NCBI RefSeq assembly: GCF_003260995.1
Contig: NZ_CP030040.1
Span: 3,911,367 to 3,963,838 of the forward strand
Direction of reading: 5' to 3'
DNA: 52,472 nucleotides
Source of the DNA: Acetobacterium sp. KB-1
Lineage (GTDB): Bacteria; Bacillota; Clostridia; Eubacteriales; Eubacteriaceae
The position numbers and the translations under genes were made by a program. Shown here one piece after another: positions 13,038 through 34,014 of the stretch; within the stretch, counting starts at the first letter, position 1, and each line of letters opens with the position of its first letter. Under the pieces are notes generated by a model, which saw only the letters and a list, made by a program, of their open reading frames with translations, was not told where the DNA came from and made no database searches.

Positions 13038-14774
13038 ATGGCAAATGGACAAAATGCAAGTTTAAGTGTTGGAATGGATCAGATTTTACAGCTGGGTGAG
13101 GTAACGGCCCGGATACTCTATGCCATCGTGGAATCAGAAAAAGCAAAAATGCTGAAGCAGGCTGCCGGGGTGGGACAAACAGCTGGAAAGCCAGCTGCGG
13201 ACGAAAGCAAGGATGAAGCGAGTGCAGTCAAGTCTGAAAATCAGGCCGTTGCTGAAAGTAGCAACCTTATCGATACCGATCTCCTTAACAAGCTGGATAG
13301 CGCATTTAAGGAGTTTCTATTGGTCAGCCGGCAAGTGATTAATCAAACCCGGGAACCGGTGATTGATTTAAAAAATATGGAACAGCTCATCGATCCCAAT
13401 CCCATTACCCGGGAGGAAAAAACGTTGGCCAAAGAGATCAATGCACTGGATCAGGCCGTGGAGCGCACCAGTAAAAGTCTGGAGCAGTTTTCCGAAGCTG
13501 CACAGGATAGTCGGATTCCCCGGCGCACGGTGATCCGTTCCCTGGGTGAGAAGATGATCCAGCTTGATGATAGGCGTGTTGCGGTGGCCCAAGGGATCGA
13601 AAACTATTTTTCCAACGTGACCAACCGGGCACGAATTGGTTTTGCCACCTGGATGGTCAATCAGTTCGATGGGATCAACAGCCGGTTTGAACAGATCAAA
13701 AATGTGGCCAATCAACAGATTGATGAAATCAATCAGGCCGAGAAAAACAACCCGGTTCGGGAAACCCCAAGTGAGACTGTGGCGAATATTCAATCGAATA
13801 CCCTGTCAAGGGACTCCAATTCGCCAGAAATCGATAAAATCAGGGATTTGTTGCTTACCATGGAAAACACCATGTCGGATCTGATGCGGGCCATTCATGC
13901 GGTAAATCAAACGCCCACAGAAACCCGGACGGTCAGCAATGATGCCAATCCCATCATTACCACCGAAGCAGCCAAGACCCAGGAAAACGACGGAGAAATA
14001 AAGGCGGATCAGGTGATGGCCAATGCTTCGGTAACAGACCGGATTTATCACGTTGATGAGTATGGACTGATGCTTTTGGATCTTCACGATGGGTTCGATG
14101 CCGATCCCCAAAAACTGGCGGATTTCATCCAGTTTTCGACCCGGTTTCAGCAATATACCACCAGAAATCAGCAATTGATCTTTGCACAGAATGCCAACGC
14201 CATCCAGGTAGCCAATGTTCATGACTTATTAGAAAACGGCATACAGGTTAAGGAGGGTGAAAATCCGATTCAAATCTTTGTTCCCAATGATGCAAAAGAA
14301 GGCCCCCGGTTTGTGATGGGATCGATTTATGACATTGCTCAAACCGATTTGCCGGAAAATGACGATCCGGAGATAAAAACCGGTAAGGACATGGTCGAAA
14401 ATCAAAGCTTGACGGCGGGGATATTGGAATATTGCCAGGCCACGATTAAACCCAATTATAACGGGGTGGAAGGTCAACTTGAAGCCCAGGGGGTGGCTCT
14501 GATGCTGTTGGCCCATAATAACCTCAAAGCACCCGCAGAATTAAACGAAAGACTCAAAAAAACCTATCAGGCGTATCGGGAAACACTTCAAGGCTCCCCA
14601 AGTGATCACCAGAAACGACTGGATGCGACCTTTAAATCCATGAATAAAACATTTCAGGATCATGTGGCGGAGTTGGATCAGTATTTAAGTCATCAACCGG
14701 TAACACCGGAAGAAAGCAGCCTTAAGCGAGAACTGGAGGAACGTCAGGAAGAAGTCTGGGAGCCGGAAATGTAA
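13038..14774 (+). CDS. ArdC-N-like domain protein with W-E-P-E-M tail
   Basis: ATG 13038 follows AAAGGAG. The first 330 of 578 residues are helical and charged, without a recognised family. Residues about 345-450 resemble the N-terminal DNA-binding-like domain of ArdC antirestriction proteins: FIQFSTRFQQYTTRNQQLIFAQN...IQVKEGENPIQIFVP...MGSIYDIAQTD. It aligns by eye with the ArdC-like protein at 23394-24407. The Zn-peptidase HExxH is missing. It ends EEVWEPEM, and 3 nt after the stop comes the first of three 17-bp palindromes. It precedes the T4SS genes and could be a transferred or DNA-protecting protein; that is inference. Confidence 0.75.
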   Translation: MANGQNASLSVGMDQILQLGEVTARILYAIVESEKAKMLKQAAGVGQTAGKPAADESKDEASAVKSENQAVAESSNLIDTDLLNKLDSAFKEFLLVSRQVINQTREPVIDLKNMEQLIDPNPITREEKTLAKEINALDQAVERTSKSLEQFSEAAQDSRIPRRTVIRSLGEKMIQLDDRRVAVAQGIENYFSNVTNRARIGFATWMVNQFDGINSRFEQIKNVANQQIDEINQAEKNNPVRETPSETVANIQSNTLSRDSNSPEIDKIRDLLLTMENTMSDLMRAIHAVNQTPTETRTVSNDANPIITTEAAKTQENDGEIKADQVMANASVTDRIYHVDEYGLMLLDLHDGFDADPQKLADFIQFSTRFQQYTTRNQQLIFAQNANAIQVANVHDLLENGIQVKEGENPIQIFVPNDAKEGPRFVMGSIYDIAQTDLPENDDPEIKTGKDMVENQSLTAGILEYCQATIKPNYNGVEGQLEAQGVALMLLAHNNLKAPAELNERLKKTYQAYRETLQGSPSDHQKRLDATFKSMNKTFQDHVAELDQYLSHQPVTPEESSLKRELEERQEEVWEPEM

Positions 14775-14777
14775 TCC

Positions 14778-14865
14778 TGTTTCCCGAGGAAACAAAAAAA
14801 TAGATGTAATCCTGTTTCCCGAGGAAACAAAAATCGCAAAACGAATCCTGTTTCCCCGGGAAACA
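14778..14865 (+). repeat. Three 17-bp palindromic repeats
   Basis: TGTTTCCCGAGGAAACA occurs at 14778-14794 and 14813-14829. A version with a more symmetric centre, TGTTTCCCCGGGAAACA, is at 14849-14865. Each could form a 7-bp-stem hairpin with a 3-nt loop, or a protein-binding operator. They sit between a stop codon and the next ribosome site. No T run follows, so they do not look like intrinsic terminators. Confidence 0.95.
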
Positions 14866-14885
14866 AAAATTGAAAGGAAAACAAA

Positions 14886-15635
14886 ATGGATAAAATCATC
14901 CCCCTTATTATTTGTTGTGTTGGCGTGATCGCACTGATTGTGATGAACATCTGGAATAAGAAAAACAAGACGGTTCAATTCAAAGGAAAGAAGAAGGAGC
15001 CGGAGCATAACAGCGTCCACGATTTTATTAATGTCAAAGACATCAAAGGAAATTTTCTTTATACCAAAGATAATAAAATCTGTGCCTATTACCGGGTGGA
15101 CGCCATTTCTCTGGATTTACTGTCACAGAACGAGAAACGCTCACTGTGTAAGCAATTGTGTGTGCAGATGGCACCGGAATCATCCTGGCGCTTTCTTTCC
15201 GTGGAAAGGCCGGTTGATATTTTTCCTCTGGTGGAAGAATACTCCCGGATCTGGACTCAAACCACCGAGCCGGTGGTCAAGGACATTCTGGGCAAGGAAA
15301 TGCTGGAGATGCATCACTTTGCCGAATCCGGGGAAATTGTTCAGCGCCAGTTTTATTTCATCGTCTGGGACGATTATGAAGTCGGTATTGAACGGGACTT
15401 TCTCAAGCGGATTACCGATATTGAAAGCCGGTTGGCAAGTGGAACAATCACCGGTGAGATCTTAAAGCAGCAGGAAATTGTCAGACTGTGTAATCTGATT
15501 AATAACCCGGCCTATTGTCATCTGGAAGATATGGAATATGGCACCCAGATTACAACGATTATGGATTTATATAAAAACAGTCATGAAAGTCAATTCGTGG
15601 CAGCAGATCAAATACAGGAGGTCGCATATGCGTAA
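14886..15635 (+). CDS. T4SS protein with N-terminal membrane segment (TrsD/VirB4-N-like)
   Basis: ATG 14886 follows GAAAGGAAAACAAA. One N-terminal transmembrane helix (IIPLIICCVGVIALIVMNIW) precedes a 210-residue cytoplasmic part. The segment VHDFINVKDIKGNFLYTKDNKICAYYRVDAI resembles the N-terminal region of VirB4/TraC-type proteins and TrsD-like partners in Gram-positive conjugation systems. No Walker motifs are present. Its end overlaps the VirB4 ATPase start by 8 bp, so the two are translationally coupled and probably act in one inner-membrane complex. The family call is tentative. Confidence 0.65.
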   Translation: MDKIIPLIICCVGVIALIVMNIWNKKNKTVQFKGKKKEPEHNSVHDFINVKDIKGNFLYTKDNKICAYYRVDAISLDLLSQNEKRSLCKQLCVQMAPESSWRFLSVERPVDIFPLVEEYSRIWTQTTEPVVKDILGKEMLEMHHFAESGEIVQRQFYFIVWDDYEVGIERDFLKRITDIESRLASGTITGEILKQQEIVRLCNLINNPAYCHLEDMEYGTQITTIMDLYKNSHESQFVAADQIQEVAYA

Positions 15636-17643
15636 GCACGAGAAACCCAAAGAAAGTCGGAAAGCACGGATTAAAGCCGAAAAACCGGTGAAGGACAAAG
15701 CGCCTAAAAAAGAACGGCGGTCACTTTTTGGGAATAGTGAGGAAAGTCAACCGGAACAGCCCAAGCGGGGATCCAAATTGGGGCGATCAAAAAAAGCAGC
15801 AATTACTGAAAATAAATCCCTGATGAATATTATTTCGCCCATCAACATGGAAATCAAGCCCAATGAATTGTGGATTGGCGAATACCTGGCCCGGGTGTAT
15901 GGCGTGATCCAATATCCGGCGCACCGGGATTATGGGTGGTTGGGGAAACTGTCCAATATCCCCGGAACAGTCTTCTCCATTGAGTTTGATAAAATTGAGA
16001 ATGCCGATTTTATTAATAATCTTAACAAGTCCGTTAATCAACATCGGGAAAAAGCCCAGGAAGCCAGTGGAAAAGATGCCCTGGCCGAGATGAATGCAAT
16101 CAAGCGGGAGGAAGACTCGATCAAAATGCTCAAAAACATTGAGTTTGAACAGGAAGTGGTTGGCAGTGTGGGGATATCGGTTATGCCCATGGCCAACGAC
16201 CGGGAAGTGTTCAATAAGATGTGCCGAAAGGTGCAAAGTACCTTTTTGATGGAAAAAACGAAGATTCGATCCTTTCCTTATCTGCAAAAGGAAGGCTTTC
16301 GCAATCTTTTTCCAGCCTGCACCCAGGAAAAGAACGTTCAACAGATCATTAAAACGGTCATGCCTATTTCATCTGTTCTGGGGGGCTTCCCTTTTGCCAG
16401 TTGTGGCTATAACGATCAGGAAGGGTTTCTGTATGGCAGGGACTCCACTGGAGGTCGAGTTTGTCTGAATCTCTGGAAGCGTGGTAAAGATCGCACCAAC
16501 TCCAGTGTGGTGGTGCTGGGTGATGTGGGATCTGGAAAATCAACAGTTATCAAAAACATTGCTCTGATGGAGTACGCCCTGGGAACCCGGATCATTTTTA
16601 TCGATCCCGAGCGGGAATACCAGGACTTATGCCGAAATCTTGGCGGGGATTGGATCAATGCCGGCGGGGATGGTAAGCACCTGATCAATCCCCTTCAAAT
16701 TTTACCATTGGAAGAAGATTTATATCTTGAGAAGGACGATGAAACAGGAAAAGATAATGAAAAAGAAAGGGATGTCCGAAAATTTGGTGCCATGGCCCTT
16801 CATTTAAAAACGCTGGACGTCTTTTTTTCGCTGTATTTCAAAGATTTGACTGATATTACCCGAGCATTACTGAAGGATGCAGTCATTACCCTTTATAATC
16901 GCTTCAATATCTTTTGGGATACGGATGTGACCACCATGAAAAACACTGATTTTCCGACCTTCAGGGATCTGTATGATTTATTGATCGAATTGGAAGAAGC
17001 CGAACAGGAACGGGGTATTAGCGAAAAAGCGTATACGGATTATCGGGATCTGGCCATTATCTTTAAAGATCTGGCCATTGGAGGGGATTCCTTCCTGTGG
17101 TCGGGTTACACATCACTAAAATCGGATGCCCGGTGTGTGTGTCTGGATACCTTTGATCTAAACAACTCATCCGACACCATCAAATCGACCCAATATTTTA
17201 ATCTGTTGTCCTGGGCCTGGCAGGAAATGAGTCGGGATCGTCATGAGCGGATCCTTTTGGTTTGTGATGAATCCTATCTGATGATTGATGAACGGGTGCC
17301 GCAATCGCTGATATTTCTCAGAAATGCCATGAAGCGCTGCCGAAAATATGAGGCCGGCATTATGATTATTTCTCATGCGGTTGAGGATTTCTTAAACCCC
17401 AGTATTAAAATGTATGGCCAGGCACTTCTGGATCAGCCCTGTTACAAGATTATGCTGGGAACCACCGGACAGAACCTTCAGGACTTGAAAAAACTCTATT
17501 TTTTAACCGAAGCCGAGCAGGAAGTCTTAACTGCCAAGCTCAGAGGAAAGGGACTCTTTATCATCGGTCGGGATCGGATCAGTATGTCCTTTGATGTGGC
17601 CGATTACAAATTTAAGTATTTTGGGGATCGGGGTGGTCGGTAG
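15628..17643 (+). CDS. VirB4-family conjugation ATPase
   Basis: ATG 15628 follows AGGAGG; the frame upstream only shadows the previous gene. The 671-residue protein has a basic N-terminus, Walker A GDVGSGKS at about residue 298, and Walker B RILLVCDESYLM at about residue 545. The C-terminal HAS-like and sensor region is AGIMIISHAVEDFLNPSI...LLDQPCYKIMLGT. VirB4/TraE-type ATPases energise assembly and transfer in type IV secretion. It lies between the TrsD-like gene and the wall hydrolase, the standard Gram-positive conjugation order. It appears intact. Confidence 0.93.
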   Translation: MRKHEKPKESRKARIKAEKPVKDKAPKKERRSLFGNSEESQPEQPKRGSKLGRSKKAAITENKSLMNIISPINMEIKPNELWIGEYLARVYGVIQYPAHRDYGWLGKLSNIPGTVFSIEFDKIENADFINNLNKSVNQHREKAQEASGKDALAEMNAIKREEDSIKMLKNIEFEQEVVGSVGISVMPMANDREVFNKMCRKVQSTFLMEKTKIRSFPYLQKEGFRNLFPACTQEKNVQQIIKTVMPISSVLGGFPFASCGYNDQEGFLYGRDSTGGRVCLNLWKRGKDRTNSSVVVLGDVGSGKSTVIKNIALMEYALGTRIIFIDPEREYQDLCRNLGGDWINAGGDGKHLINPLQILPLEEDLYLEKDDETGKDNEKERDVRKFGAMALHLKTLDVFFSLYFKDLTDITRALLKDAVITLYNRFNIFWDTDVTTMKNTDFPTFRDLYDLLIELEEAEQERGISEKAYTDYRDLAIIFKDLAIGGDSFLWSGYTSLKSDARCVCLDTFDLNNSSDTIKSTQYFNLLSWAWQEMSRDRHERILLVCDESYLMIDERVPQSLIFLRNAMKRCRKYEAGIMIISHAVEDFLNPSIKMYGQALLDQPCYKIMLGTTGQNLQDLKKLYFLTEAEQEVLTAKLRGKGLFIIGRDRISMSFDVADYKFKYFGDRGGR

Positions 17644-17645
17644 TC

Positions 17646-18704
17646 ATGGCGATTCCAGTCATTGCCAAAGCAGCGACCGCAGTTGCAACGGACAAGAAAT
17701 TAAGAAACATCGTCCTGGGAATACTGGCCGGGTTATTGGGGCTGGTCTTAGGACTGGTTTTAACCCTTGTATACATTCTGTCTACCCCCATCACCATGCT
17801 GACCAGTATCATTACCAATCCGGATATCCTGGCAGTTGTGCTGCAATTAAAAACCGAGTATCAATATTTATTACCGGGAAAAGCCAATGGCAATGGCCAG
17901 TTTGCCTGGCCACTGGATGCCGAATACAAACTGGATCGATCTGATGAAACAAACCTGTTCGGTGAACGGGTACATCCGATTTACGGTGATGTGCGGATGC
18001 ATACCGGGATTGATATTCAAGCACCCGATGGCTCGAATTGCTATGCCATTGGTGACGGAACCGTTGTTTATGCCGGGATGAACGGCGGTTGGGGGAACAC
18101 CATTATTTTAAATGTCGGAAAGGCCAAAGACGGGAAGGAAATCACCGCTTTCTACTGTCACTTAACGTCCGGATCCTGGTCAATTAATGCCGGCGATATG
18201 GTCAAACGGGGACAGCAGATTGCCCTGACCGGTGCAACCGGCAGCACCCAGGGGGGACACATTCATTTTGAAATAAAAGCCGACGGTGAATATGTGGATC
18301 CGATGCTTTACATTTCCGATAGTGACGCTGCATTATCCGGCGAAATTGATTTAAGCACCGCCGAAATGGTGAATTCTCAGATCACAGCTTATTGTGATTA
18401 TGGCACCACATCTTCCGGGACGACCACTACTGCCAACCGGACAGTTGCCGGTTATCCCAGTCTGGAATCAGGTACCCGAATTTACATTCCTGTCCGAGCC
18501 GATCAGCCAAACGGCGGGGTCTATGTGGTCGAAGATCGTGGGGGTGCTGTGGATGAAGAACGGAAGGTTATTGATATGTGGCTGCCGACCGAAGCGGAGT
18601 GTCTATCATGGGGCAGACAATATGTGCCGATCTATGTTATACAGGAGGATAGTGCCACTAAAAAGCAAAGGATTGTTGATTTAGGGGGCTATGATTTCAG
18701 GTAG
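17646..18704 (+). CDS. M23 peptidase with 3D domain (conjugative wall hydrolase)
   Basis: The start is 3 nt after the VirB4 stop. Residues about 20-50 form one or two membrane segments. A LytM/M23 endopeptidase domain follows (about 80-225) with zinc and active-site signatures MHTGIDI (HxxxD), FYCHL and GGHIHFEI (HxH). Residues about 275-340 form a 3D/double-psi-barrel domain: TRIYIPV...VVEDRGGAV...IDMWLPTEAEC. The layout matches VirB1/Orf14-like cell-wall hydrolases that open peptidoglycan for the T4SS channel. The 3D domain suggests a second carbohydrate-binding or transglycosylase-like activity. Confidence 0.9.
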   Translation: MAIPVIAKAATAVATDKKLRNIVLGILAGLLGLVLGLVLTLVYILSTPITMLTSIITNPDILAVVLQLKTEYQYLLPGKANGNGQFAWPLDAEYKLDRSDETNLFGERVHPIYGDVRMHTGIDIQAPDGSNCYAIGDGTVVYAGMNGGWGNTIILNVGKAKDGKEITAFYCHLTSGSWSINAGDMVKRGQQIALTGATGSTQGGHIHFEIKADGEYVDPMLYISDSDAALSGEIDLSTAEMVNSQITAYCDYGTTSSGTTTTANRTVAGYPSLESGTRIYIPVRADQPNGGVYVVEDRGGAVDEERKVIDMWLPTEAECLSWGRQYVPIYVIQEDSATKKQRIVDLGGYDFR

Positions 18705-18743
18705 AATTAATCAATTAATTAATGAGAGAAAGTAGGTAAAAGA

Positions 18744-19676
18744 ATGAAAAAAGTGGAAACCAACAAGACAAAGGAAGCGAAAAGCTTCAGAGATGATATT
18801 CTCAAGTTTATGCAGACCCTCAATGGTGTGGACGATGAAAACTTAACCCCGGAAGAAGCCGAAATTCTTAGGGAATCCGTTGAGGAATTTGCATCGCAGT
18901 TCATTTATTTCCGAGAGTCCTATACCCAGAAAAATTCCCATATCCGGCATATTTCGGCGCTGATGGAAGATATCCGGGAGCTGGTTGGAGAGTCCGGAGA
19001 AAAATACGAAGAAGCTGAGGATCTGGAAGAATCCAATACGATTCTCTTTAATGCGGTTAATGAGGTCATCGGCAAGCTCAGTGAGGTAGAAAAAAATCTG
19101 GAAGAAGCTGAAAAAGAAGAAAGTGAATTTAAACGGATCGAGAGCATTGAGCGGATGTTCGTACAGGCAAACCTGAGTGTCCAGGGATCAGAAGAAACCA
19201 TCAAAAAAATGGCGGATCAGATCAAGGATCAAATGGTGACTTTCCGGGAAGGCGTCGAGAGCAATGACCTTCAGCTGGCGATTATTGAAAAAAACACCAT
19301 CGACTTTAAGCAGCAGTGCGATACCATCATTAAAACCTTTGAGTCGTTCAGTCAACATTTTGACGAATCCAAAGAAGTCTCCCAAAAGAAACTCGATGAG
19401 CTTTTTACAAATCTGGTCGAACAGGTTAATCAGACCAAGACCGATATCGTGGGGGAGCGGGAAAAAGAACTGGATGCACTCACCGGTAAGTATAACGAGG
19501 CCCTGGATAAAATCGAGACAAAGAGTGATGAAGCCCTGGGAAAAATGGAAGGTTTAATGGATCGGGTCAATACGCTTCTATTTGCCGAAGGTTTTAAACA
19601 GCTCTTTTTTATGATTGGTGGTGGGTTCTCCATCATCAATTTTATCATGTTAATTGTACTGATATTCACGAAATAG
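18744..19676 (+). CDS. Coiled-coil protein with C-terminal membrane anchor
   Basis: The start has a weak ribosome site (GTAGGTAAAAGA). About 280 residues are almost entirely helical and Glu/Lys-rich (for example SEVEKNLEEAEKEESEFKRIE). One C-terminal transmembrane helix follows (GGGFSIINFIMLIVLIF). I recognise no family. The topology, a long cytoplasmic coiled coil with a tail anchor, would suit a scaffold of the transfer apparatus or a tether for the ParA-like protein encoded 13 bp downstream. That role is inference. Confidence 0.75.
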   Translation: MKKVETNKTKEAKSFRDDILKFMQTLNGVDDENLTPEEAEILRESVEEFASQFIYFRESYTQKNSHIRHISALMEDIRELVGESGEKYEEAEDLEESNTILFNAVNEVIGKLSEVEKNLEEAEKEESEFKRIESIERMFVQANLSVQGSEETIKKMADQIKDQMVTFREGVESNDLQLAIIEKNTIDFKQQCDTIIKTFESFSQHFDESKEVSQKKLDELFTNLVEQVNQTKTDIVGEREKELDALTGKYNEALDKIETKSDEALGKMEGLMDRVNTLLFAEGFKQLFFMIGGGFSIINFIMLIVLIFTK

Positions 19677-19689
19677 GAGGAAACGAATC

Positions 19690-20808
19690 ATGCTTTTATA
19701 TGTAACCAGTAACCAGAACAATGGGATTTTTGATTTTCTGAAAAAGGAAAACGGGATGCCGATTAAAAAATTCATCGGGGATTATGAACTGGCAGCCTTT
19801 GTGGAGAATGATCTCAGTAAATTTGCATCCTATCGCTATCTGGCGGTGGATCTGGAGTGTTTGCTTGATATTCCAGAGGGTTTATTTAAGGCAATACACG
19901 CCATTCAGGATTGGTTTGAACAGCGACTGATCATCTTTGTCCGGGAGATCACCCCAGAGCTGAAACAGGAGCTATTGAATCGGGAAGTCTATAATATCAT
20001 TACCGGCGATCCCAGGGAATTTGAAGCCCAGATTCTAAAGGCAGTCAGTCGGACCGGAATCACCTATCAGGATCAGCTGCTAAAAGATGAGATTCATGAA
20101 GCCGTGGCCATTGAGCAGCCGTCGATTGCAGAAATCATTAAAAGGCCGGTTGTTGTCGATGACCAACCGCTGATTGAAATGCCATTTATTGAGACAGTCA
20201 TAGCGGATCCCATGGAACCGGAAACACGAGCTGAACCGGAGGAACAGTTTATTATCGTGGCCGGCTCCCAGCGTCGAACCGGTACCACCACCACGGCCAT
20301 CCAGTTGGCCAACTATCTGGCCAATCAGGGAAAAATGGTTGCCTATATGGAAGCCAATGATCATAATCATCTCAAGCCGATTATCGAAGCCTACCGCATG
20401 AAAAAAGAAGAAATCGAGGATGGGGAATGGCATCAGACCAAGGGGGTCGATTATTTCTATCGGAATGGCCTGGTCATGAAAACCTATGATTACATCATCT
20501 TTGATGTGGGGGTTTTGAATGAAGATGTGATTGAACCCTTTAGTCAGGGGCACATTAAAATTTTGTGTGGTGCCGGCAAGTGCTTTGAACGGGCAGCTTT
20601 AAATCAGGCATTGGCACACTACCAGAAGGATGAGCTGGAGGAAATCAACCTGTTATTAAATTTCATTGCTCCGGAAGAAGAAGCGACACTTAAAACCTTC
20701 TTCCCAACGGCAAAGTTTAGTCAGTATGCTCCCAATATCATGGGATGGCACGCTAATAAAGAATTGTTCAGACAGTTATTGAAAAGAAATGAGCAGGGGG
20801 TTTCGTAA
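19690..20808 (+). CDS. ParA/MinD/CpaE-like P-loop protein lacking the Walker lysine
   Basis: ATG 19690 follows AGGAGG. The N-terminal 150 residues resemble a degenerate receiver or CpaE-type domain. A MinD/ParA-like nucleotide-binding region then begins EEQFIIVAGSQRRTGTTTTAIQLANYLA. The deviant Walker A of this superfamily is normally KGGxGKT; here RRTGTTT has no lysine at either usual position. A later switch-like segment reads DYIIFDVGVLN. It may therefore bind but not hydrolyse ATP, or belong to a diverged family found in mobile elements. Its stop overlaps the next start as TAATG, indicating translational coupling. Confidence 0.75.
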   Translation: MLLYVTSNQNNGIFDFLKKENGMPIKKFIGDYELAAFVENDLSKFASYRYLAVDLECLLDIPEGLFKAIHAIQDWFEQRLIIFVREITPELKQELLNREVYNIITGDPREFEAQILKAVSRTGITYQDQLLKDEIHEAVAIEQPSIAEIIKRPVVVDDQPLIEMPFIETVIADPMEPETRAEPEEQFIIVAGSQRRTGTTTTAIQLANYLANQGKMVAYMEANDHNHLKPIIEAYRMKKEEIEDGEWHQTKGVDYFYRNGLVMKTYDYIIFDVGVLNEDVIEPFSQGHIKILCGAGKCFERAALNQALAHYQKDELEEINLLLNFIAPEEEATLKTFFPTAKFSQYAPNIMGWHANKELFRQLLKRNEQGVS

Positions 20809-21260
20809 TGACAGCAGCCGTTAAAAAAGGGGACTTCATCCGAACCGATGGAGCCGATCAGACAGTGGTTTTGGATGTGCAGGGCAGTGATGCCCTGCTT
20901 TTTACCGGGACTCAGTTTATCAAAGCCCATGGCATCCAGATGATTGAAGGTAAATTGATCTGGGATTTCGGGAATTATTATCAGTCGATTGATCAGATTC
21001 CCAAAAACTATGAAAACCTGGGTTTCCAGGATCTCAAACTGGATTTGGCCAGCATGAAGCAGACCAATGAAGCGGAAATGATTAAGGCGCTGCTGGTAGT
21101 GGAAAATCGTTTTGAGGGAACGGAGCTTTTGAATCAAATCCATGAGCGGTTTGAAAATGAGGGTTTTAATCTGCTAAATGACGGGTTTGATCGGGTTCAT
21201 GCGGATCTGACCCGGGAAGAAGACTATGAGATTGACGATGATTGGGAGCCGGAAGCATAA
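20808..21260 (+). CDS. Small protein with an unrecognised 60-aa domain and W-E-P-E-A tail
   Basis: The start overlaps the ParA-like stop. Residues 5-65 form a compact beta-rich unit (KKGDFIRTDGADQTVVLDVQ, then SDALLFTG and QFI) that closely matches the C-terminal part of the protein at 22267-23109 and more weakly its N-terminal part. The rest is helical. It ends DDDWEPEA, and the stop is followed after 8 nt by a 17-bp palindrome. I recognise no family. Confidence 0.8.
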   Translation: MTAAVKKGDFIRTDGADQTVVLDVQGSDALLFTGTQFIKAHGIQMIEGKLIWDFGNYYQSIDQIPKNYENLGFQDLKLDLASMKQTNEAEMIKALLVVENRFEGTELLNQIHERFENEGFNLLNDGFDRVHADLTREEDYEIDDDWEPEA

Positions 21261-21268: not shown

Positions 21269-21334
21269 TGTTTCCCGAGGAAACAGAAATTCAGAGTGTC
21301 GATCATTAAAGCGCATTTGTTTCCCGAGGAAACA
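21269..21334 (+). repeat. Two 17-bp palindromic repeats
   Basis: TGTTTCCCGAGGAAACA occurs at 21269-21285 and 21318-21334, 49 bp apart rather than 38. They lie between the W-E-P-E-A gene and the next ribosome site. Confidence 0.95.
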
Positions 21335-22161: not shown

Positions 22162-22189
22162 TCGTTGAATATGGGAATACAGATAATCC

Positions 22190-22244
22190 TGTTTCCCGAG
22201 GAAACAAAATGTCGAAAAGAACAATCCTGTTTCCCGAGGAAACA
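22190..22244 (+). repeat. Two 17-bp palindromic repeats, 38-bp period
   Basis: TGTTTCCCGAGGAAACA occurs at 22190-22206 and 22228-22244. It lies upstream of the ribosome site of the next gene. An open frame reads through these repeats from 22165, but this is not considered coding. Confidence 0.95.
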
Positions 22245-22266
22245 AGATATTCGAAAAGGAGAAAAA

Positions 22267-23109
22267 ATGCAGAAAATTAAAAACGGATCATTTGCAAAGT
22301 ATTTAGTTACGTTGGAAGCGCATGAAAATGACTTGCTGTTATTTAATGGGGATCAATTTATCTGGGCATTCGATGCGGAAATTGATGACGATACCCAAAA
22401 ACTCATGTGGGCAGCTGCCCGTTACTTTGATGATTATCGGATCGTTCCACCATTGGCAGAAATAAAGAAGTATTACAACAATCCATTTTGTATCAGAGAA
22501 GGTTTATGTTTTGCCATTGATCCAGAAAATAACCGGGCAGTGTTGCAGGGTTCAAACTTCCACGATGATGTACGACCGATTAATATTCCAATTTCACCGG
22601 TTGAGCTGGTCGAGTATCAGGGGATTTCTTACCCGGTTACGGCGGTAGCGGATTGGGGATTTTACAATAATACCAGTGTAACCGATCTGATTCTACCGGA
22701 TTCAATTACCCAAATCGGGAATTATGCCTTTGCCAATTCGATCATCCATGACGTGAAAATGCCGGCGGATATCAGTATGGGAAATAATATTTTCTATGGC
22801 TGTAACCATTTAAGTGAAAAGATGAAAAATTATCAGGACGGAATAAAAATTGATCAGCATCCGCAATGCAATCTATTAAGAAAAGGCGATGTTTTTCAAA
22901 CCAATGCTTCCGATCAGACGGTGGTATTGGATGTAAATGGGAGCGACGCCCTGTTATTTAACGGCCGGAAATTCATTCAAGCCACCAATATTCGCCAGGA
23001 CGAACAGGGCTTACAGTGGGACGAAAGCCAGGTTTATGAGCAGTTTAGTGATATTTCAAAACAGCAACCGGAGCAATCGTGTGAGGATGAATGGGAGCCG
23101 GAAATGTAA
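22267..23109 (+). CDS. Leucine-rich/BspA-like protein flanked by duplicated small domains, W-E-P-E-M tail
   Basis: I chose ATG 22267, preceded by AAAAGGAGAAAAA, because the frame upstream merely translates the palindromes. Residues 1-70 and about 205-270 are two diverged copies of the small domain also in the protein at 20808-21260 (C-terminal copy: RKGDVFQTNASDQTVVLDVN, then SDALLFNG). Between them is a BspA-like leucine-rich unit, VTDLILPDSITQIGNYAFANS. It ends EDEWEPEM, with a palindrome 3 nt after the stop. The LRR unit suggests protein binding; function is unknown. Confidence 0.8.
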   Translation: MQKIKNGSFAKYLVTLEAHENDLLLFNGDQFIWAFDAEIDDDTQKLMWAAARYFDDYRIVPPLAEIKKYYNNPFCIREGLCFAIDPENNRAVLQGSNFHDDVRPINIPISPVELVEYQGISYPVTAVADWGFYNNTSVTDLILPDSITQIGNYAFANSIIHDVKMPADISMGNNIFYGCNHLSEKMKNYQDGIKIDQHPQCNLLRKGDVFQTNASDQTVVLDVNGSDALLFNGRKFIQATNIRQDEQGLQWDESQVYEQFSDISKQQPEQSCEDEWEPEM

Positions 23110-23112: not shown

Positions 23113-23167
23113 TGTTTCCCGAGGAAACAAAATTAAAAATACGAACGTCTTGTTTCCCGAGGAAACA
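23113..23167 (+). repeat. Two 17-bp palindromic repeats, 38-bp period
   Basis: TGTTTCCCGAGGAAACA occurs at 23113-23129 and 23151-23167, starting 3 nt after the W-E-P-E-M stop codon. Confidence 0.95.
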
Positions 23168-23393: not shown

Positions 23394-24407
23394 ATGGCCA
23401 AGTATGAGAAGCGAAGTCCTGAAGATATTAAAAAAGAAATGGATCTCTATAACCAGAAAATAATTAATCTGGGTGAGTCGTTCAAGCGTGATCCGGCGGT
23501 CATTGCTGAATATTTAGAGTTTTCTTCAAAGTTTTATCGTTACAGCCCCCGAAATCAGCAGCTTATTTTTTCGCAAAATGAAAGGGCATCCTTTGTGGGC
23601 AGTTATCAGTTTTATAAGGAAAAAGGTTATCAGGTGCAGAAGGGTCAAAAAAGCATGAAGATTCTGGTACCGGTTAAAGCGTCTTATTTTTATCGGGATG
23701 GGGAAAATACGTCCACTCCTTTAATTAATGCGACCAAAAGCGAACGAGAGCGGATCAAGCGGGGAGAGATCGAGGTAAAATCGGTCATGCGGTTTAAACT
23801 GGGATCGGTTTTTGATATTTCCCAAACCGACTGCCCGGTAGCCGAATACCCCCGGTTAGTGAGTTTTGGGGAAGTATCTCAGGATCATGCCACCTTATAT
23901 GAGCAGCTACGGAGTTATTGTGAAAACCAGGGATTCCCGGTTGAGGAAACAGCTTTGCGCTCGATCAAATTACGGGGATCCTATACGCCAGATACCAATG
24001 AAATCAGACTGAACGAAAAACTCCAGGATACTCAAAAGCTCGGGACATTTCTGCATGAAATGTCCCATGCTTTTTTAGACCATAGGGCTGAAGCATTTCG
24101 TTCCGAAATAAGTGAACACCAGCATGAATTTGAAGCCGACGGTTTGACCATTATGTTTTTGAGTCGCTTTGGCCTGGAAGTCACTGAAGGAACCAAAGAT
24201 CATCTGGCATCCCATTACCAGAGTTTTCTGGAACAGATCGAAGCGCTGCCGGCAGAAGAACAGAAAAAATTTAGCTTGAACCTGTCCATGGACAAGATCA
24301 ACAATACCTATAAAGAACATATCGGGGCGATGGAAGAACATTTGAATCAACTTAATGCCGGGGCACAGTCTGAAGACTATGAAGAAGAATGGGAGCAGGA
24401 AATGTGA
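23394..24407 (+). CDS. ArdC-like antirestriction protein with W-E-Q-E-M tail
   Basis: The 337-residue protein has an N-terminal ArdC-type DNA-binding domain (YLEFSSKFYRYSPRNQQLIF...YQVQKGQKSMKILVPVK...FKLGSVFDISQTDCP). An M78/IrrE-like zinc peptidase domain follows with HExxH as FLHEMSHAFLDH at about residue 220 and the downstream EFEADGL. ArdC proteins protect incoming conjugative DNA from restriction in the recipient; for plasmid RSA/pSa ArdC, transport to the recipient with DNA has been reported. The C-terminus is EEEWEQEM, a variant of the tag on neighbouring proteins, and a palindrome starts 3 nt after the stop. It is probably intact. Confidence 0.88.
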   Translation: MAKYEKRSPEDIKKEMDLYNQKIINLGESFKRDPAVIAEYLEFSSKFYRYSPRNQQLIFSQNERASFVGSYQFYKEKGYQVQKGQKSMKILVPVKASYFYRDGENTSTPLINATKSERERIKRGEIEVKSVMRFKLGSVFDISQTDCPVAEYPRLVSFGEVSQDHATLYEQLRSYCENQGFPVEETALRSIKLRGSYTPDTNEIRLNEKLQDTQKLGTFLHEMSHAFLDHRAEAFRSEISEHQHEFEADGLTIMFLSRFGLEVTEGTKDHLASHYQSFLEQIEALPAEEQKKFSLNLSMDKINNTYKEHIGAMEEHLNQLNAGAQSEDYEEEWEQEM

Positions 24408-24410
24408 TTC

Positions 24411-24427
24411 TGTTTCCCGAGGAAACA
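24411..24427 (+). repeat. Single 17-bp palindromic repeat
   Basis: TGTTTCCCGAGGAAACA lies 3 nt after the stop of the ArdC-like gene. Confidence 0.95.
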
Positions 24428-24519
24428 GGATTATAATCAATTTAATAGTTTATCCGAGAAGAAAATGCCTTAAAGTTTGGTGTGAAAAAAATGAGGGTGG
24501 TGTTTTTATTAAAAATTTC

Positions 24520-25125
24520 ATGATAAGCATGATATTAATTATGCTGACATTAGTTATCAGTTTTTGGGTAATTGGTGGAAGTAAAATGGATGCAGGTTCG
24601 TTAGGAATAGTCATTGCTCTAATCGGCGTTTTTGGAGCATTATGTACTGGTATTCTTACGTTGTTTAAAGATTTTAAAAAAAGTGAAGATGTCAGACAAG
24701 ATACTGGAGATATGAAACAAAGAGTGCAACGGATCGAAGAAGACAGCAAAAAGACAGTATCGGTTTTAGTTGAAAATATAAATCCAAGCATTAAAAAGAT
24801 CTCAGAAATATCTGGTGGGAATGCTGATGATTTAAGAATTTTAGTTGAAGAACTTAATTATCAAAAACGCCTGAAAAACGAGTCTTCAGGAGATAAAGGC
24901 TATCAGAAAGATCGAACAATCAATTATATTAATCAACTATTTGAAGAAAATGTGATACTAACGAATCAACTCAAAGAAAAAGAAATTGAACTTAACAGAA
25001 GCAAAGAAGCTTTATTAATGCTGAAGGAAAAATGCGAGTTACTTGAGAATGAGAATTTAAAATTAAAAAAAATAATTAAAGAAAAAGAAAATAGTCAGAG
25101 CAATAATTGGGAACCGGAACAGTGA
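24520..25125 (+). CDS. Membrane protein with coiled-coil tail ending W-E-P-E-Q
   Basis: The start is uncertain. ATG 24520 gives a protein beginning directly with a membrane helix, but the nearest good ribosome site (GAGGGTGG, 24493-24500) would better serve a rare ATT at 24508; ATG 24355 lies inside the ArdC gene. Two membrane helices (MILIMLTLVISFWVIGG and IGVFGALCTGILTLF) precede a charged coiled coil (LKEKEIELNRSKEALLMLKE). The cytoplasmic C-terminus is NNWEPEQ, with a palindrome 3 nt past the stop. I recognise no family. The sequence is more AT-rich than its neighbours. Confidence 0.7.
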   Translation: MISMILIMLTLVISFWVIGGSKMDAGSLGIVIALIGVFGALCTGILTLFKDFKKSEDVRQDTGDMKQRVQRIEEDSKKTVSVLVENINPSIKKISEISGGNADDLRILVEELNYQKRLKNESSGDKGYQKDRTINYINQLFEENVILTNQLKEKEIELNRSKEALLMLKEKCELLENENLKLKKIIKEKENSQSNNWEPEQ

Positions 25126-25128: not shown

Positions 25129-25183
25129 TGTTTCCCGAGGAAACAGGAACGTCAAAAATATAATCTTGTTTCCCGAGGAAACA
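25129..25183 (+). repeat. Two 17-bp palindromic repeats, 38-bp period
   Basis: TGTTTCCCGAGGAAACA occurs at 25129-25145 and 25167-25183, starting 3 nt after the W-E-P-E-Q stop. Confidence 0.95.
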
Positions 25184-25232: not shown

Positions 25233-25385
25233 CAATCTCAATGACAAGCTCATTCTGATGAACGGTGAACAGGTTGAAGGGAGGTTTTTTTAAAATAGAT
25301 GATAAGGTAGCGTGAATTGTGTTATCATTAGCTAAACATTTTACGTTGTCAAAGAAAGTACGCTAAGAAAGTGAGGGATGACCGA

Positions 25386-26171
25386 TTGAAGATTGAACAG
25401 CTAATAAAAGAAATTGAAAATAAAAATAACGTCCTTCAGTCCTGCCGGCCTTTAACGCAAGGAGAATTAGAACGACTCAACGAATCATTTATGGTTCAGT
25501 TTACCTATAACTCCAATGCGATTGAAGGCAATACCTTAACGCTTGGAGAAACTGCCATGGTTTTAGAAGGACTTACCATTGATCAAAAACCATTAAAAGA
25601 TCATTTGGAAGCCATCGGTCATCGGGACGCCTTTGAATATATTAAAGACCTGGTGAGTGAAAAAGCCATTTTATCCGAAGCAGTTATTAAAAATATTCAC
25701 TCCTTAGTTTTAATCAATCGACCCAAAGATAAGGGGATTTATCGACGAATACCGGTTTCAATTGCAGGAGCCTTTATCGAGCCGGTGCAGCCGGTTCAGA
25801 TACAGCCATCCATGGAAGAATTGATTCTAAAGAATGAACAGTGGAAGTCAACACTTCATCCAATTGAGCGAGTGGCACGGTTTCATTTAGAATTTGAAGG
25901 GATTCACCCCTTTATTGACGGAAATGGTCGTACCGGTCGGTTAATCCTTAATCTTGATCTGATGCAGAATAATTATCTGCCCGTTAATGTGAAATTTTCA
26001 GATCGGAAAAAATATTATGAAGCATTCGACACGTATTTTAGAAATGATGATGTTTCAGCAATGGCGGAACTGATCGGAAACAACCTTTTAGAACGCATTA
26101 ATGAATATATCAACATTCTGTCCAATTCTCAAGCCCTTGAAATTGATGAAGAATGGGAACCTGAACAATAA
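25386..26171 (+). CDS. Fic-domain protein (probable AMP-transferase) with W-E-P-E-Q tail
   Basis: TTG 25386 is 8 nt after GAGGG; GTG 25371 in the same frame is an alternative with a poor ribosome site. The 261-residue protein has the Fic core motif HPFIDGNGRTGR at about residue 173, with His and the anion-binding GNGR visible. An N-terminal inhibitory-helix motif SNAIEGN fits the [S/T]xxxE[G/N] rule of self-inhibited class II Fic proteins. Fic enzymes usually transfer AMP to proteins. A winged-helix tail seems absent or short. It ends DEEWEPEQ, followed after 3 nt by five palindromes. The gene lies between two similar palindrome-plus-terminator blocks, as if inserted as a cassette. Confidence 0.88.
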   Translation: MKIEQLIKEIENKNNVLQSCRPLTQGELERLNESFMVQFTYNSNAIEGNTLTLGETAMVLEGLTIDQKPLKDHLEAIGHRDAFEYIKDLVSEKAILSEAVIKNIHSLVLINRPKDKGIYRRIPVSIAGAFIEPVQPVQIQPSMEELILKNEQWKSTLHPIERVARFHLEFEGIHPFIDGNGRTGRLILNLDLMQNNYLPVNVKFSDRKKYYEAFDTYFRNDDVSAMAELIGNNLLERINEYINILSNSQALEIDEEWEPEQ

Positions 26172-26174: not shown

Positions 26175-26343
26175 TGTTTCCCGAGGAAACAGGAAATAGA
26201 AAAATACGATCTTGTTTCCCGAGGAAACAGGAAATGAAAAACCACGATCTTGTTTCCCGAGGAAACAGGAAATGAAAAATCACGATCTTGTTTTCCGAGG
26301 AAACAGGAAATGAAAAATCGCAATCTTGTTTCCCGAGGAAACA
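26175..26343 (+). repeat. Array of five 17-bp palindromes with exact 38-bp period
   Basis: Copies start at 26175, 26213, 26251, 26289 and 26327. The fourth has one change (TGTTTTCC). The 21-bp intervals are themselves similar (for example GGAAATGAAAAATCACGATC), so this is a tandem 38-bp repeat, not a CRISPR. The first copy is 3 nt after the Fic stop codon. Confidence 0.96.
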
Positions 26344-26366
26344 AAATACAGGAAATACATTAAAAG

Positions 26367-26390
26367 GAGATCCAAGCGGATCTCTTTTTT
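26367..26390 (+). terminator. Rho-independent terminator after the Fic gene
   Basis: GAGATCC (26367-26373) pairs perfectly with GGATCTC (26378-26384) over an AAGC loop and is followed by six T. It separates the Fic cassette from the giant methylase/helicase gene. Confidence 0.88.
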
Positions 26391-26436
26391 CTTTTCAATC
26401 ACAATGACAAATCCATATTGACGAAAGGTGAATAGA

Positions 26437-32400: not shown

Positions 32401-34014
32401 TCCAAAACCCGTCTGGCCCGGTTTTATAATCTGCCGGAGCTGATGGCCGTTTTTAAGGAGGTGGCTGACATTCAAACCCCGGATATGCTAAAACTCCCGG
32501 TACCAAAAGCTATCTATGAAGATGTGGTGATTAAACCGTCCGATCAGCAGAAGGAGATGCTTATGGAGCTGGTTGAACGAGCCGAACGGGTCCGAAATAA
32601 CCTGGTGGAACCCTATGAGGATAATATGCTGAAAATCACCAATGACGGACGCAAGCTGGCCCTGGATCAGCGACTGATTAACCCGCTGCTGCCCGATCCC
32701 GAGGAATCAAAGGTGAATAAGAGTGTCGAAAATATTGTTGCGGTCTGGCAGGACAGCATGGATCAGCGATCAGCTCAATTGGTATTTTGTGATTTATCCA
32801 CGCCCAATAAGGATGGCCGTTTCAATGTCTATCAGGAGATTAAAAATAAAGCCGTTGCTAAAGGGATCCCGGAAGATGAGATTGCCTTTATTCATGATGC
32901 CGACACCGATGTGAAGAAAACGGCACTTTTTTCAAAGGTAAGAAGCGGATCCGTGCGGGTACTGATTGGATCAACGCCTAAAATGGGCGCTGGAACTAAC
33001 GTCCAGGACAAGTTAATTGCCCTTCATCATCTGGATGTCCCGTGGAGACCAAGCGATATTGAGCAACAGGAGGGTCGCATCCTAAGACAGGGAAACGAAA
33101 ATCCGGAAGTGAAGATTTTTCGTTATATCACCGAGCAAACTTTTGACAGCTACTCGTGGCAGTTGATCGAGAATAAACAGAAATTTATCGGTCAGATCAT
33201 GACCAGCAAACTCCCAGGGAGATCCTGTGAGGATGTCGATGAGCAGGCATTATCCTATGCCGAAGTCAAAGCCCTGGCCACCGGCAATCCGCTCATTAAG
33301 GAGAAGATGGATCTGGATGTGAAGGTCACCAAGCTGAAGCTGATCAAGGCCAATTTTGTCAGCCAACGGTACCGTTTGGAGGACAATATCTTAAAAGCCT
33401 ATCCAAGAGCTATCAGTATCCAAAGCGAGCAGAAAAAAGCTTTGACTGAGGATGTGAAGCTCTATGAGTCAAAACGGTCATCCAAGGATCATTTTGAAAT
33501 GACCATCGGTAATGTTTTTCACACCGATAAGAAGGAAGCTGGTACCGCCATTCTGGAAGTGATTAAAAAGCTGAAAGACGATAAACCACGATTGATTGGC
33601 CAGTATGCCGGATTTAAAATGGCAGCCAAGTATGCCGGTTTCGATGGGGTTGATCTTTATCTAAAAAATCAGGCCACCCATACCGTCCATTTGGGTACCG
33701 ATCCCCTTGGAAATATCACCCGCATCGATCATGTCCTGGAAAGCATCCCGGATCAGATAAAAAAATGCGAAATGAATATCCAGGATACCATGGAACGGCT
33801 GGAAAACGCCAGAGATGAGGTTAAAAAGCCTTTTCCCCAGGAGCAGGAACTAAACGACTACCTGCTTCGTTTAAACGAGTTAAATACGATTCTCAGCGTC
33901 GAAAAATCCGACCATTCCCAGGGAACCCCAGACAATGATGCAAGTATGGCGGATCATCTGGAGTATATGGAAATGTGTGCCATCGACGAAGGGGAATGGG
34001 AGCCAGAGCAATAA
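26437..34014 (+). CDS. 2525-aa methylase/SNF2-helicase megaprotein with W-E-P-E-Q tail
   Basis: ATG 26437 follows AAAGGTG. Residues 1-250 resemble an ArdC-N-type domain (LERSAWHYKYSFYNQMLIVFQ). A low-complexity linker (about 255-385) overlaps a second gene in another frame. At about 1025-1100 is an N6-adenine methylase core: motif I EPGMGVGHFF and catalytic-type motif NVPFGDY in place of NPPY/F. From about 1690 a superfamily II helicase follows with Walker A CPGAGKT, DEAH box FVDEAHSYKNL, motif III ATGTPISNS and motif VI QQEGRILRQGN. Related giant proteins of conjugative elements are proposed to modify or protect transferred DNA. It ends EGEWEPEQ. No palindrome follows. Confidence 0.9.
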   Translation: MNSREIQHFPQIAQENFQTPENWMTFLERSAWHYKYSFYNQMLIVFQRPDATAVTSIKAWNHKLNRTINVGSKRILVIDDRGKYDFTNVFDVSDTHKRNPDGPDFKLWSLENVDEVEIIKRATEHYQETRLKHTLPYYIMTEMKVRNKDQFEYFKTEIMESNRLYLRNLDVSGFATLYDNSVIYQILSRCGYNPRDYFKPEDFAQIKNINNFKSLIFLGNNVTSTTKPFLIEMGKLVQTIEMEQLKNQIEGELKNEQEPGNIQTYGIDLSPGRGVSDPGHQTPDSTQSGNREVRELKEPVSEGIQAGSVDGTDLRRQDQRTPGGSGSGSQAPTGADHGGDDEKSSGPGQENPAPGMGGSYEQPSTLGQRDRSFGTHLQLSLFKPEQEPIKPNQKAESQQPSAFSMPQHDIDVILRSAGNNRDSQLRIVAQYKKQLPAEDNVAFLQAEYRTGGKGFYIDEKEVAVWFDKNGIQIARGNTVQSNFMKTTLSWEQVEKRIGELLENGLYMGQEQLDQVDGHERKELADKLWHLHQDRSGEFFMEDDIFRGGHPDSSARIAELYTDPEKLDEIINGLDGFVKKYKVDRSILRFHFHKPDELLSRLRDLKRERREYQANGFDYQEPAMFITEDEVDAVLCSGSSASGEKQPIINYFSENHSHQEKADFLKDIYGTKSQSRGLSGADHSWLDYSAKGMLLRREEAEKSILLSWPKVAKRIDELMAQGRYVIDEAKRIEAPELKPEKPAIPMDDIRDLLINVTPDDYTRPVIYDLLSETKNNDEFGEVIKNTYLFSEVPVLGNLTDIYRQHLDQTGIRFEKTADPSIDYFLSWSEIAGEVRQLIEAGQYVVPGAYQEVDPEPYVESYGETKSFITFDRDPEDAKDQELIDVSAADQDEGDHSDQKKTDSNTPKPENYKITADVLGEGSPRQKFKANVLAIQTLQEIEKEKRMATPEEQAILSQYVGWGGLPQAFDPDNIHWQLEAKELKGLLTEEEYSSAKGSTLNAHYTAPAIIKAMYGALEQMGYYKGNILEPGMGVGHFFGLLPDAMKDSKLYGVELDEITCRIAKALYPEANISVCGFEKTQFSNNFFDVAIGNVPFGDYQVYDKAYDKHSFMIHDYFFAKSLDKVRDGGVLAFITSKGTMDKKSPMVRQYLAERAELIGAVRLPNNAFKANAGTEVTSDIIFLKKRDRKVLATDESWVHLGMDENGIPINQYFIDHPEMILGEMQMVSGRFGDESACLPIPGNDLKLELEKALGNLSYQFPQVEIEAESLMEDDRATIPADPDVANYSYTLVDDELYYRENSVMNRMDKPAATTSRIIGLIGLRDCTRELIALQLENGSNEEIEKKQEELHILYDAFAKKHGLINATGNRRAFDEDGSYWLLCALEVLNEDGTFKEKSDIFYKRTIRTNEVVTAVDTSNEALLVSISEKAKVDLDYMSSLTGKPREVIINDLEGLIFRDFGNLDPEQLPQNFFDAPDIPFVTADEYLSGNVRRKLDHVRQLFENLPNDQAQTLLPNITALEAAQPRDLEASEIEVRLGATWIDPSYIQDFMVDTFKPATYLVNSESIKIHYSPYTGVWNVQGKNADTYDNVLANVTYGTKRANAYRILEDSLNLKDIRIYDTTQNADGNDVRILNKNETILANQKQELIKEAFRDWVFQEPQRREVLTRKYNILFNSIRPREYEGSHVVLHGISPEIRLRDYQLNAIARGLYGGNTLLGHCPGAGKTFEMTAIAMESKYLGLSNKALFVVPNHLIGQWGAEFLALYPGANVLVARKKDFEPDNRKKFCSRIATGDYDAIIIGHSQFEKIPLSKEFQEQALDSQIDDVLMAIDDAKRNNEEQFTIKQLERTRKSLELRLNRLNDDTRKDGVITFEELGIDRLFVDEAHSYKNLFLYTKMRNVAGIGQSEAQKATDMFNKCQYLDQLTQNKGVVFATGTPISNSITELYTMMRYLQYDTLMDMDLGHFDAWASTYAEAITAIELSPEGTGYRSKTRLARFYNLPELMAVFKEVADIQTPDMLKLPVPKAIYEDVVIKPSDQQKEMLMELVERAERVRNNLVEPYEDNMLKITNDGRKLALDQRLINPLLPDPEESKVNKSVENIVAVWQDSMDQRSAQLVFCDLSTPNKDGRFNVYQEIKNKAVAKGIPEDEIAFIHDADTDVKKTALFSKVRSGSVRVLIGSTPKMGAGTNVQDKLIALHHLDVPWRPSDIEQQEGRILRQGNENPEVKIFRYITEQTFDSYSWQLIENKQKFIGQIMTSKLPGRSCEDVDEQALSYAEVKALATGNPLIKEKMDLDVKVTKLKLIKANFVSQRYRLEDNILKAYPRAISIQSEQKKALTEDVKLYESKRSSKDHFEMTIGNVFHTDKKEAGTAILEVIKKLKDDKPRLIGQYAGFKMAAKYAGFDGVDLYLKNQATHTVHLGTDPLGNITRIDHVLESIPDQIKKCEMNIQDTMERLENARDEVKKPFPQEQELNDYLLRLNELNTILSVEKSDHSQGTPDNDASMADHLEYMEMCAIDEGEWEPEQ
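27200..27574 (+). CDS. tnpV: TnpV-like protein nested in another frame of the megagene
   Basis: ATG 27200 is 9 nt after AGAAGGAG, a strong ribosome site inside the larger gene. The 124-residue product matches the TnpV family (transposon-encoded protein) along its length: MELTYHQEGEFLTPDIK, IGKYGNLRNQYLKEFKP, LVEVDQAAKRRLELI and a C-terminal EWAGHMNNLQHLANEIVLSEL. The overlapped host frame is a Gly/Ser/Pro/Gln-rich linker of no recognisable fold, which suggests that TnpV is the selected frame and the host linker is the overprinted one. TnpV function is unknown; it is carried by clostridial mobile elements. Confidence 0.8.
   Translation: MNKNQETFKPMELTYHQEGEFLTPDIKPLTPPSQEIGKYGNLRNQYLKEFKPDLLMELIFDDKINEHLVEVDQAAKRRLELIMAGMMKNHPAPDKKTQPLEWAGHMNNLQHLANEIVLSELIYN

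Follow-up and report, generated by a model that had tools for sequence, protein, structure and literature searches.

A shared acidic C-terminal tag on the relaxase and accessory proteins of an Acetobacterium conjugative element: a probable translocation signal

The stretch analysed here (the window; 52,472 nucleotides, positions 3911367-3963838 of the 3.99-Mb single-contig genome of Acetobacterium sp. KB-1) holds part of a conjugative element that extends well upstream of it. Seven proteins encoded in the window, and the products of five additional tagged genes upstream of it, the relaxase among them, end in nearly the same short peptide, W-E-[P/Q]-E-[M/Q/A] or a close variant, preceded by mostly acidic residues. 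Judging from sequence comparisons, this tag is probably a C-terminal translocation signal of the conjugative type IV secretion system of the element. The preliminary description, which saw the seven genes of the window, named no mechanism; the key clue, the relaxase, lay outside its view.

The seven tags that had been reported were all recovered at the same coordinates and in the same frames (in gene order EEVWEPEM, DDDWEPEA, EDEWEPEM, EEEWEQEM, NNWEPEQ, DEEWEPEQ and EGEWEPEQ). A catalogue made from stretches of eight Acetobacterium genomes, flanks included, comprises 588 open reading frames (ORFs; greedy calling with a minimum of 75 residues). Of these, 68 end in W[EDAQ]x[EQ]x, while W[ED][PQ]E occurs internally only twice (179,484 residues, the last six of each ORF excluded). 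In the 68 tagged ends the Trp at position -5 is a consequence of selection by the pattern, yet Glu stands at -2 in all 68 although Gln was also allowed; position -3 can be Pro, Gln, His, Leu or Ala, and position -1 Met, Gln, Ala, Leu or one of four others. At the DNA level, the pattern TGGGARCCNGARNNNTRA has seven matches in the whole host genome, on one strand only and all inside the element (3910140-3945363; six in the window and one upstream), and its reversed control has none there. These C-termini are not due to chance, and their position at the extreme end of the protein is that expected of a C-terminal type IV translocation signal. The carriers had been called unrelated, which holds only in part: five body types are found among the seven, but the proteins starting at 13038 and 23394 share an ArdC-like region (E=2e-25) and those starting at 20808 and 22165 a small domain (E=1e-16). 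A single-sequence AlphaFold2 model of the 20808-21260 protein was uninformative (predicted local distance difference test score 37.7).

The upstream relaxase (PF03432, E=1.5e-30) ends in DWEHEL, and the tag is present in 5/5 called orthologues. A DUF7768 protein ends in EEDWAQEA (tag in 5/7 orthologues), a second Fic protein in NDWEPEM (5/6, the sixth ending in WEPKM) and a 136-residue protein in DDWEPEM. The fifth gene encodes a DUF3991 primase that is interrupted in this copy (L032:13083-15128), and its 3' remnant still ends in DEWEREA; three of seven primase pieces carry the tag by the strict pattern, two more end in WVQEA, and the 5' piece of this copy and one other lack it. For the 2528-residue helicase/methylase of the window (the giant), eight of 11 pieces are tagged, the other three being N-terminal pieces of split copies (G015, G008, G013). 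In the same eight genomes no tag was found in the orthologue groups of ParA, ParB, SSB, VirD4, VirB6, CpaB, a CpaE-like protein, VirB11, TadB, TadC, large surface proteins, VirB4 or M23, which bears out the earlier remark that core machine parts lack it. The labels VirD4, VirB4, ParA, ParB and M23 rest on Pfam, and VirD4 is a coupling protein of the CD1115 type (NF045973; 301.2 bits against a cut-off of 250); VirB6, VirB11, TadB/C, CpaB, CpaE, SSB, MobC and "Tn1549-like" are labels given by eye, not from a family search. A tag on the relaxase and on candidate substrates, with none on machine parts, is the distribution expected of a secretion signal, although in related elements (below) it is statistical and has exceptions.

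If the tag is an address read by the transfer machine, one would expect it to change when the same protein is found with another machine, and the giant allows such a comparison. Of the 391 genomes of the class, 90 have homologues of its C-terminal part and 20 have the VirD4 lineage of this element (E up to 1e-60). The 30 best giant loci out of the 90 genomes with matches were read; L287, the frame of which ends early, was excluded from both the charge test and the tree. The 14 giants found with this VirD4 (12 linked by contig and two, in G254 and G113, only by genome) carry a net charge between -8 and -2 over their final 12 residues (median -5), whereas in the 26 others (best loci, among L275-L301, not individually checked for VirD4 on their own contigs) it is -1 to +2 (median +0.5; U=0, p=1.6e-7). 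Each of these 26 has at least two Lys or Arg in the tail and 23 end in Arg, often as -[Y/L/M]ER; three come from genomes in which this VirD4 lies elsewhere, far away in G416 and on other contigs in G294 and G254. In a tree of the giant bodies, the copies from KB-1 and from G017, another Acetobacterium element, nest inside this second group (100/100 and 98/93 support), as does that of G023, on a long and unsure branch; the remaining 11 giants with acidic tails fall outside that group. For the giant, the tail varies with the coupling-protein lineage, also on related bodies.

Homologues that lack the tail were named in the preliminary description as grounds for rejecting a function for it. Such homologues do exist, among them the giants of other transfer systems and most relatives of the Fic protein: of its best 80 homologues (out of 241 relatives) only four, all from Acetobacterium, have the tail, and the other 76 have no acidic tail by the rule given below. 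However, as far as checked, the tail-less homologues stand apart from this transfer-system lineage, a pattern that agrees with an address. The close Fic relatives (87-97%) come from Acetobacterium dehalogenans, A. wieringae, A. bakii and an Acetobacterium metagenome-assembled genome.

Related elements were sought with the relaxase in the 391 genomes of the class, and with VirD4 in those and in a phylum-level set of 398 genomes. Homologues of tagged proteins in the elements found often carry different terminal letters arranged by the same syntax: an acidic stretch, a hydrophobic residue, Glu, and a hydrophobic residue or Arg. In G409 we observed EDEEFEM, EDEEIEM (three times) and EELDM, with ADFEL on the relaxase; in G773 DEWDHEL, DEWDLEL and DDWDYEL; in G023 EEER on the giant and DEER, DLER and DIER on others; in G130/G204 DEMEF on the relaxase and EEMEM and DDMEF on others; and in the G017 element DWETDWEI (relaxase), DELEM (ArdC), NDWELEM (Fic) and GEWDLEQ (giant). 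Tails were counted as acidic when the last 10 residues held at least five D/E and (D/E minus K/R) was at least 4. In a first set (14 stretches from 12 genomes without WEPE), this was so for 27/48 homologues of tagged families vs. 6/129 of untagged families (Fisher 1.8e-13), and over all 565 ORFs the 75 acidic ends fell to 11, 4, 5 and 0 when the scored residues were shifted inward by 10, 20, 30 and 50 residues. In a second set (14 stretches, 12 genomes) the counts were 7/19 vs. 5/56 (p=0.0085), and the same shifts reduced 30 of 294 to 5, 0, 2 and 2. Within one element, the acidic tails of non-homologous proteins are also more alike than between elements (9.67 vs. 5.58 BLOSUM units over six residues), a likeness reached in none of 2000 label shuffles; with the KB-1 element removed the values are 8.49 and 5.66, again reached in none of 2000 (only proteins passing the acidity rule were used and homologous pairs were excluded). 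The flanking chromosome of three related elements has an acidic tail in 0/93 ORFs. Other control stretches have 2/179, a weak control since they contain much chromosomal DNA, and the giants outside this lineage are the better one. Plasmid and phage records yielded 26 and three relaxase matches, all below 60% identity, and among the matches listed none reaches the tail.

Several of these results weigh against the proposed signal. The acidity rule was fixed after part of the first set had been seen, and in the KB-1 element itself, where it is passed by 8/11 tagged and 0/78 untagged ORFs, the three tagged ORFs that it misses include the relaxase. The effect is much weaker in the second set, one genome (G294) is common to both sets, and the counts are not independent because some of the elements are related (G198/G260/G299/G416 and G130/G204). 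In the first set the rule is missed by 8/12 relaxases of related elements (e.g. GKSM or KWDKGQGYDR), although many of these keep D-W near the end (LDWEKES, LDWKNGKSM), by 3/3 homologues of the DUF7768 protein and by 2/4 homologues of the Fic protein at 25371. Acidic ends are also found in untagged families, namely ParB (2/7), CpaB (2/7) and VirD4 (2/19) in the first set, and ParB (4/7) and one SSB in the second.

One may go further and propose that each coupling-protein lineage of Bacillota elements uses one homogeneous tail of its own, common to the relaxase and the anti-restriction, Fic and priming proteins that would be delivered with it. Here we lean only slightly towards acceptance, and the same holds for the tails that such a machine-specific code would comprise: WEPEM, DEWDHEL, EDEEIEM, DEMEF, EER and a Lys/Arg-rich ...YER. 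The tails in the Tn1549-like element of G239 are KRQEPER (ArdC), ERKAVGYER (giant), NRKYEF (relaxase) and PQERE (primase). The homologous proteins in the Tn1549-like element of G416 end in RRKGAYP, DYERPAN, NRQYES and QEYVR, and because these differ a single code in Tn1549-like elements is only suggested, a further point against. If the code were real, the delivered repertoire of many elements could be read from sequence, cargo proteins would change their tail when changing machine, and the recruitment of anti-restriction and Fic proteins as cargo would be explained.

How might such a signal work? The acidic-aromatic end would be recognised by the VirD4 coupling complex or by an adaptor attached to it, and the donor would export all tagged proteins: relaxase and primase, both ArdC-type anti-restriction proteins, both Fic proteins, the giant and a number of small ones. 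These would travel alongside the single DNA strand or precede it, and in the recipient the delivered set may prime the newcomer, shield it from restriction and establish it. The label would be co-adapted to its machine: other acidic versions go with related machines, and with Tn1549-like machines go tails that are near neutral or basic and frequently have Arg as their last residue. Recognition, delivery and the action of the delivered proteins we infer from the pattern of carriers. Transport of ArdC together with DNA has been described. Among the natural substrates of dedicated conjugation systems described in PMC8406263 are relaxases, the SogL primase, ParM and FicT toxins, and three of these kinds (relaxase, primase and Fic) are tagged in this element.

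An alternative that we consider unlikely, but not negligible, is that the tag docks its carriers onto a hub protein of the element, in the donor or the recipient, for instance one that gathers DNA-processing proteins at the transferred strand, rather than serving as a secretion signal. Docking by short acidic-hydrophobic peptides at the C-terminus is known, and the acidic tip of SSB docks repair proteins. The SSB-like protein of the element ends in DDIPF, and DNA-handling proteins are among the tagged set; yet the SLATT-like membrane protein, the LRR protein and the Fic proteins bear the tag as well, and giants with related bodies differ in tail according to their transfer-system lineage. A hub inside the coupling complex would merge this alternative with the secretion address.

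The tag might also be a jobless by-product of a dispersed DNA repeat, if a unit of tag, stop codon and palindrome had spread by recombination. Behind six of the seven tagged genes of the window there is, 3 or 8 nucleotides past the stop codon, a 17-bp palindrome (TGTTTCC-NNN-GGAAACA) that had been overlooked. Over the catalogue it lies exactly 3 nucleotides past the stop at 45/68 tagged ends and 8 nucleotides past it at eight more, and similarity between tagged genes extends beyond the stop codon; a shared 3' module spreading by recombination would account for this regular spacing. Nevertheless, tag and palindrome are separable. In 8/8 tagged copies of the giant gene no palindrome stands directly behind the tag, and 38 untagged ORFs are followed by a palindrome within 12 nucleotides. 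Thirty stretches of related or similar elements without the WEPE tag contain no palindrome, yet many have tails that are acidic and similarly built. Moreover, comparing positions -5 to -2 between the 11 called tagged ORFs of the KB-1 element gave 137 identical, 47 synonymous and 36 non-synonymous codon pairs, vs. 33, 23 and 604 in the linker preceding the tag (pairs that are not independent, from ORFs chosen by the tag pattern). Because of the synonymous changes, the giant's tag without a palindrome and the acidic tails of palindrome-free stretches, the peptide is the conserved unit, as the preliminary description had argued from codon usage. The tag is real, non-random and peptide-level, and its syntax recurs in related elements; the repeat may have helped to spread it, but that the peptide has no job is improbable.

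Control of turnover or assembly by the tag, as a degron or protease tag, is more improbable still: C-terminal peptides of such length can act in this way, but this one is common to a relaxase and a 2528-residue enzyme, and a degron has no reason to follow the VirD4 lineage. A ribosome-stalling C-terminus that controls the next gene together with a hairpin past the stop can practically be dismissed, since despite a Pro near the C-terminus and a palindrome 3 nucleotides past the stop in many tagged genes, the Pro gives way to Gln, His, Ala or Leu with the rest unchanged, the giant has no palindrome, and on the gene strand the palindrome centre is read both ways (19 CGA and 15 TCG of 36).

The palindrome itself occurs in 36 copies between 3883898 and 3950342 of the KB-1 genome, single or in arrays with 35-38-bp spacing and mostly at gene ends, and genome-wide, allowing up to two mismatches, there are only two places outside the element, both with two mismatches. 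Of the 36, 27 lie outside called ORFs; among the remaining nine some fall, in our view, within ORFs whose start was placed too far 5'. With the centre YSR it is found in 9/40 genomes of the family, all of one genus. Between orthologous sites the centre is inverted (CGA to TCG) with constant flanks in the groups at element positions 2848, 11591 and 54760, and in the ArdC/M78 group (window 24411) it is inverted between related species. As an RNA hairpin element the palindrome is disfavoured, because its centre varies at equivalent orthologous sites and is found both ways, which is what a DNA site, but not an RNA loop, would lead one to expect. The element encodes ParA and two ParB_N proteins, and all five palindrome-bearing elements that cover the region (KB-1, G001, G003, G015 and G005) carry two ParB-like genes, whereas 15 of the 30 palindrome-free stretches have one and the rest none, partly for not covering the region. 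In PMC7383237 the parS consensus is given as TGTTTCACGTGAAACA and that of the Noc-binding site (NBS) as TATTTCCCGGGAAATA. The left half of the palindrome, TGTTTCCC, combines features of parS (TGTTTCAC) and NBS (TATTTCCC) as presented there. Unlike these 16-bp sites, TGTTTCC-CGA-GGAAACA has 17 bp, with one extra central base pair, and is confined to one element of the genome; it fits neither canonical 16-bp consensus. From its sequence and distribution, the palindrome (TGTTTCCCGAGGAAACA) is a putative scattered binding site of the second ParB, perhaps of a Noc-like kind.

Table 1. Tagged genes, untagged machine genes and palindromes of the window (window coordinates; fractions are tagged orthologues)
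Feature	Coordinates	Strand	Remarks
ArdC-like protein, 578 residues	13038..14774	+	Tag WEPEM (codons 14757..14771); 8/8
Three palindromes	14778..14865		Spacing 35-36 bp
VirB4/TraG-type ATPase	15538..17643	+	Untagged; 0/8
M23 peptidase with 3D domain	17646..18704	+	Untagged; 0/7
ParA-like protein	19690..20808	+	Untagged; label by eye, no Pfam match; 0/8
150-residue protein	20808..21260	+	Tag WEPEA (codons 21243-21257); 6/7
Two palindromes	21269..21334
LRR_5 protein	22165..23109	+	Tag WEPEM (codons 23092-23106); true start probably further 3'; 6/7
Two palindromes	22190..22244		Ahead of the probable start of the LRR protein, behind an untagged gene
Two palindromes	23113..23167		Behind the LRR gene
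ArdC-N and M78-type metallopeptidase protein	23394..24407	+	Tag WEQEM (codons 24390-24404); 7/7
SLATT-like membrane protein	24355..25125	+	Tag WEPEQ (codons 25108-25122); true start probably further 3'; 3/3
One palindrome	24411..24427		Behind the ArdC/M78 gene
Two palindromes	25129..25183
Fic protein	25371..26171	+	Tag WEPEQ (codons 26154-26168); 5/5 called orthologues
Five palindromes	26175..26343		Spacing 38 bp; one with a mismatch
SNF2 helicase/Eco57I-type methylase giant, 2528 residues	26428..34014	+	Tag WEPEQ (codons 33997-34011)
Three single palindromes	34685..38976		34685 and 38960 exact; 35837 with two mismatches

Some further features of the element were observed. Several Acetobacterium copies of the giant gene are split (G015, G008, G013 and G017), the C-terminal piece retaining the tag; in G017 the split is due to roughly 2.4 kb inserted close to the same end region. 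Near VirD4 lies a Tad-pilus-like gene set (L033:254-6299; by eye CpaB, VirB11/CpaF, TadB, TadC and a TadE-like protein), which is present in distant relatives too. A RepA_N replication initiator (L031:18324-19256) is encoded upstream of the ParA gene of the element, a hint of a replicating stage. Neither an integrase nor the boundaries of the element came to light. Transposase genes in or beside the element (window 11252-12831, 44851-46320, 47106-48407 and 50371-51135) comprise an HTH_Tnp_1/rve pair and genes of Mu and IstB/IS21 types. Rfam searched at the gathering threshold gave no match within the window.

The interest of the tag is high because a short peptide on about a dozen proteins, the relaxase included, makes protein delivery by Gram-positive conjugation directly testable, and it also gives a handle on the receptor.

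In the conjugation-derived system of Bartonella, relaxases and Fic effectors have the BID signal in common. BID is a folded domain with a charged tail, whereas the tag of this element is 5-10 residues long; the BID family (PMC6509941) was absent from the Pfam tables of the tagged proteins scanned, made with a library that was not checked for a BID model. In the F plasmid conjutome C-terminal or internal signals likewise deliver many proteins by conjugation (PMC11288057), and that account considers it possible that shuffling with relaxase genes gave effector genes their signals. The F plasmid signals reported there are heterogeneous and the tested C-terminal ones mostly positive or hydrophobic, in contrast to one homogeneous acidic tag on about a dozen proteins here. 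ArdC, Toprim primases and multidomain proteins have likewise been proposed, as polyvalent proteins, to be delivered during invasion (PMC5512222), in a paper the main-text part of which contains no occurrence of "translocation signal", "secretion signal" or "C-terminal tail". Searching titles and the beginnings of abstracts of open-licence papers gave no shared C-terminal tag in Gram-positive conjugative elements, which is weak evidence. An acidic address does have a precedent in the Dot/Icm system of Legionella, since Glu-rich (E-block) C-terminal signals are there read by DotM (PMC5802825). In both cases a Glu-rich acidic C-terminal peptide is common to different proteins, those of Legionella being type IV-delivered and, in the same account, dependent on a low pI. 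The tag described here differs from the E-block in belonging to a conjugative element of Bacillota, in marking the relaxase itself, and in being a shorter, nearly invariant peptide with a Trp.
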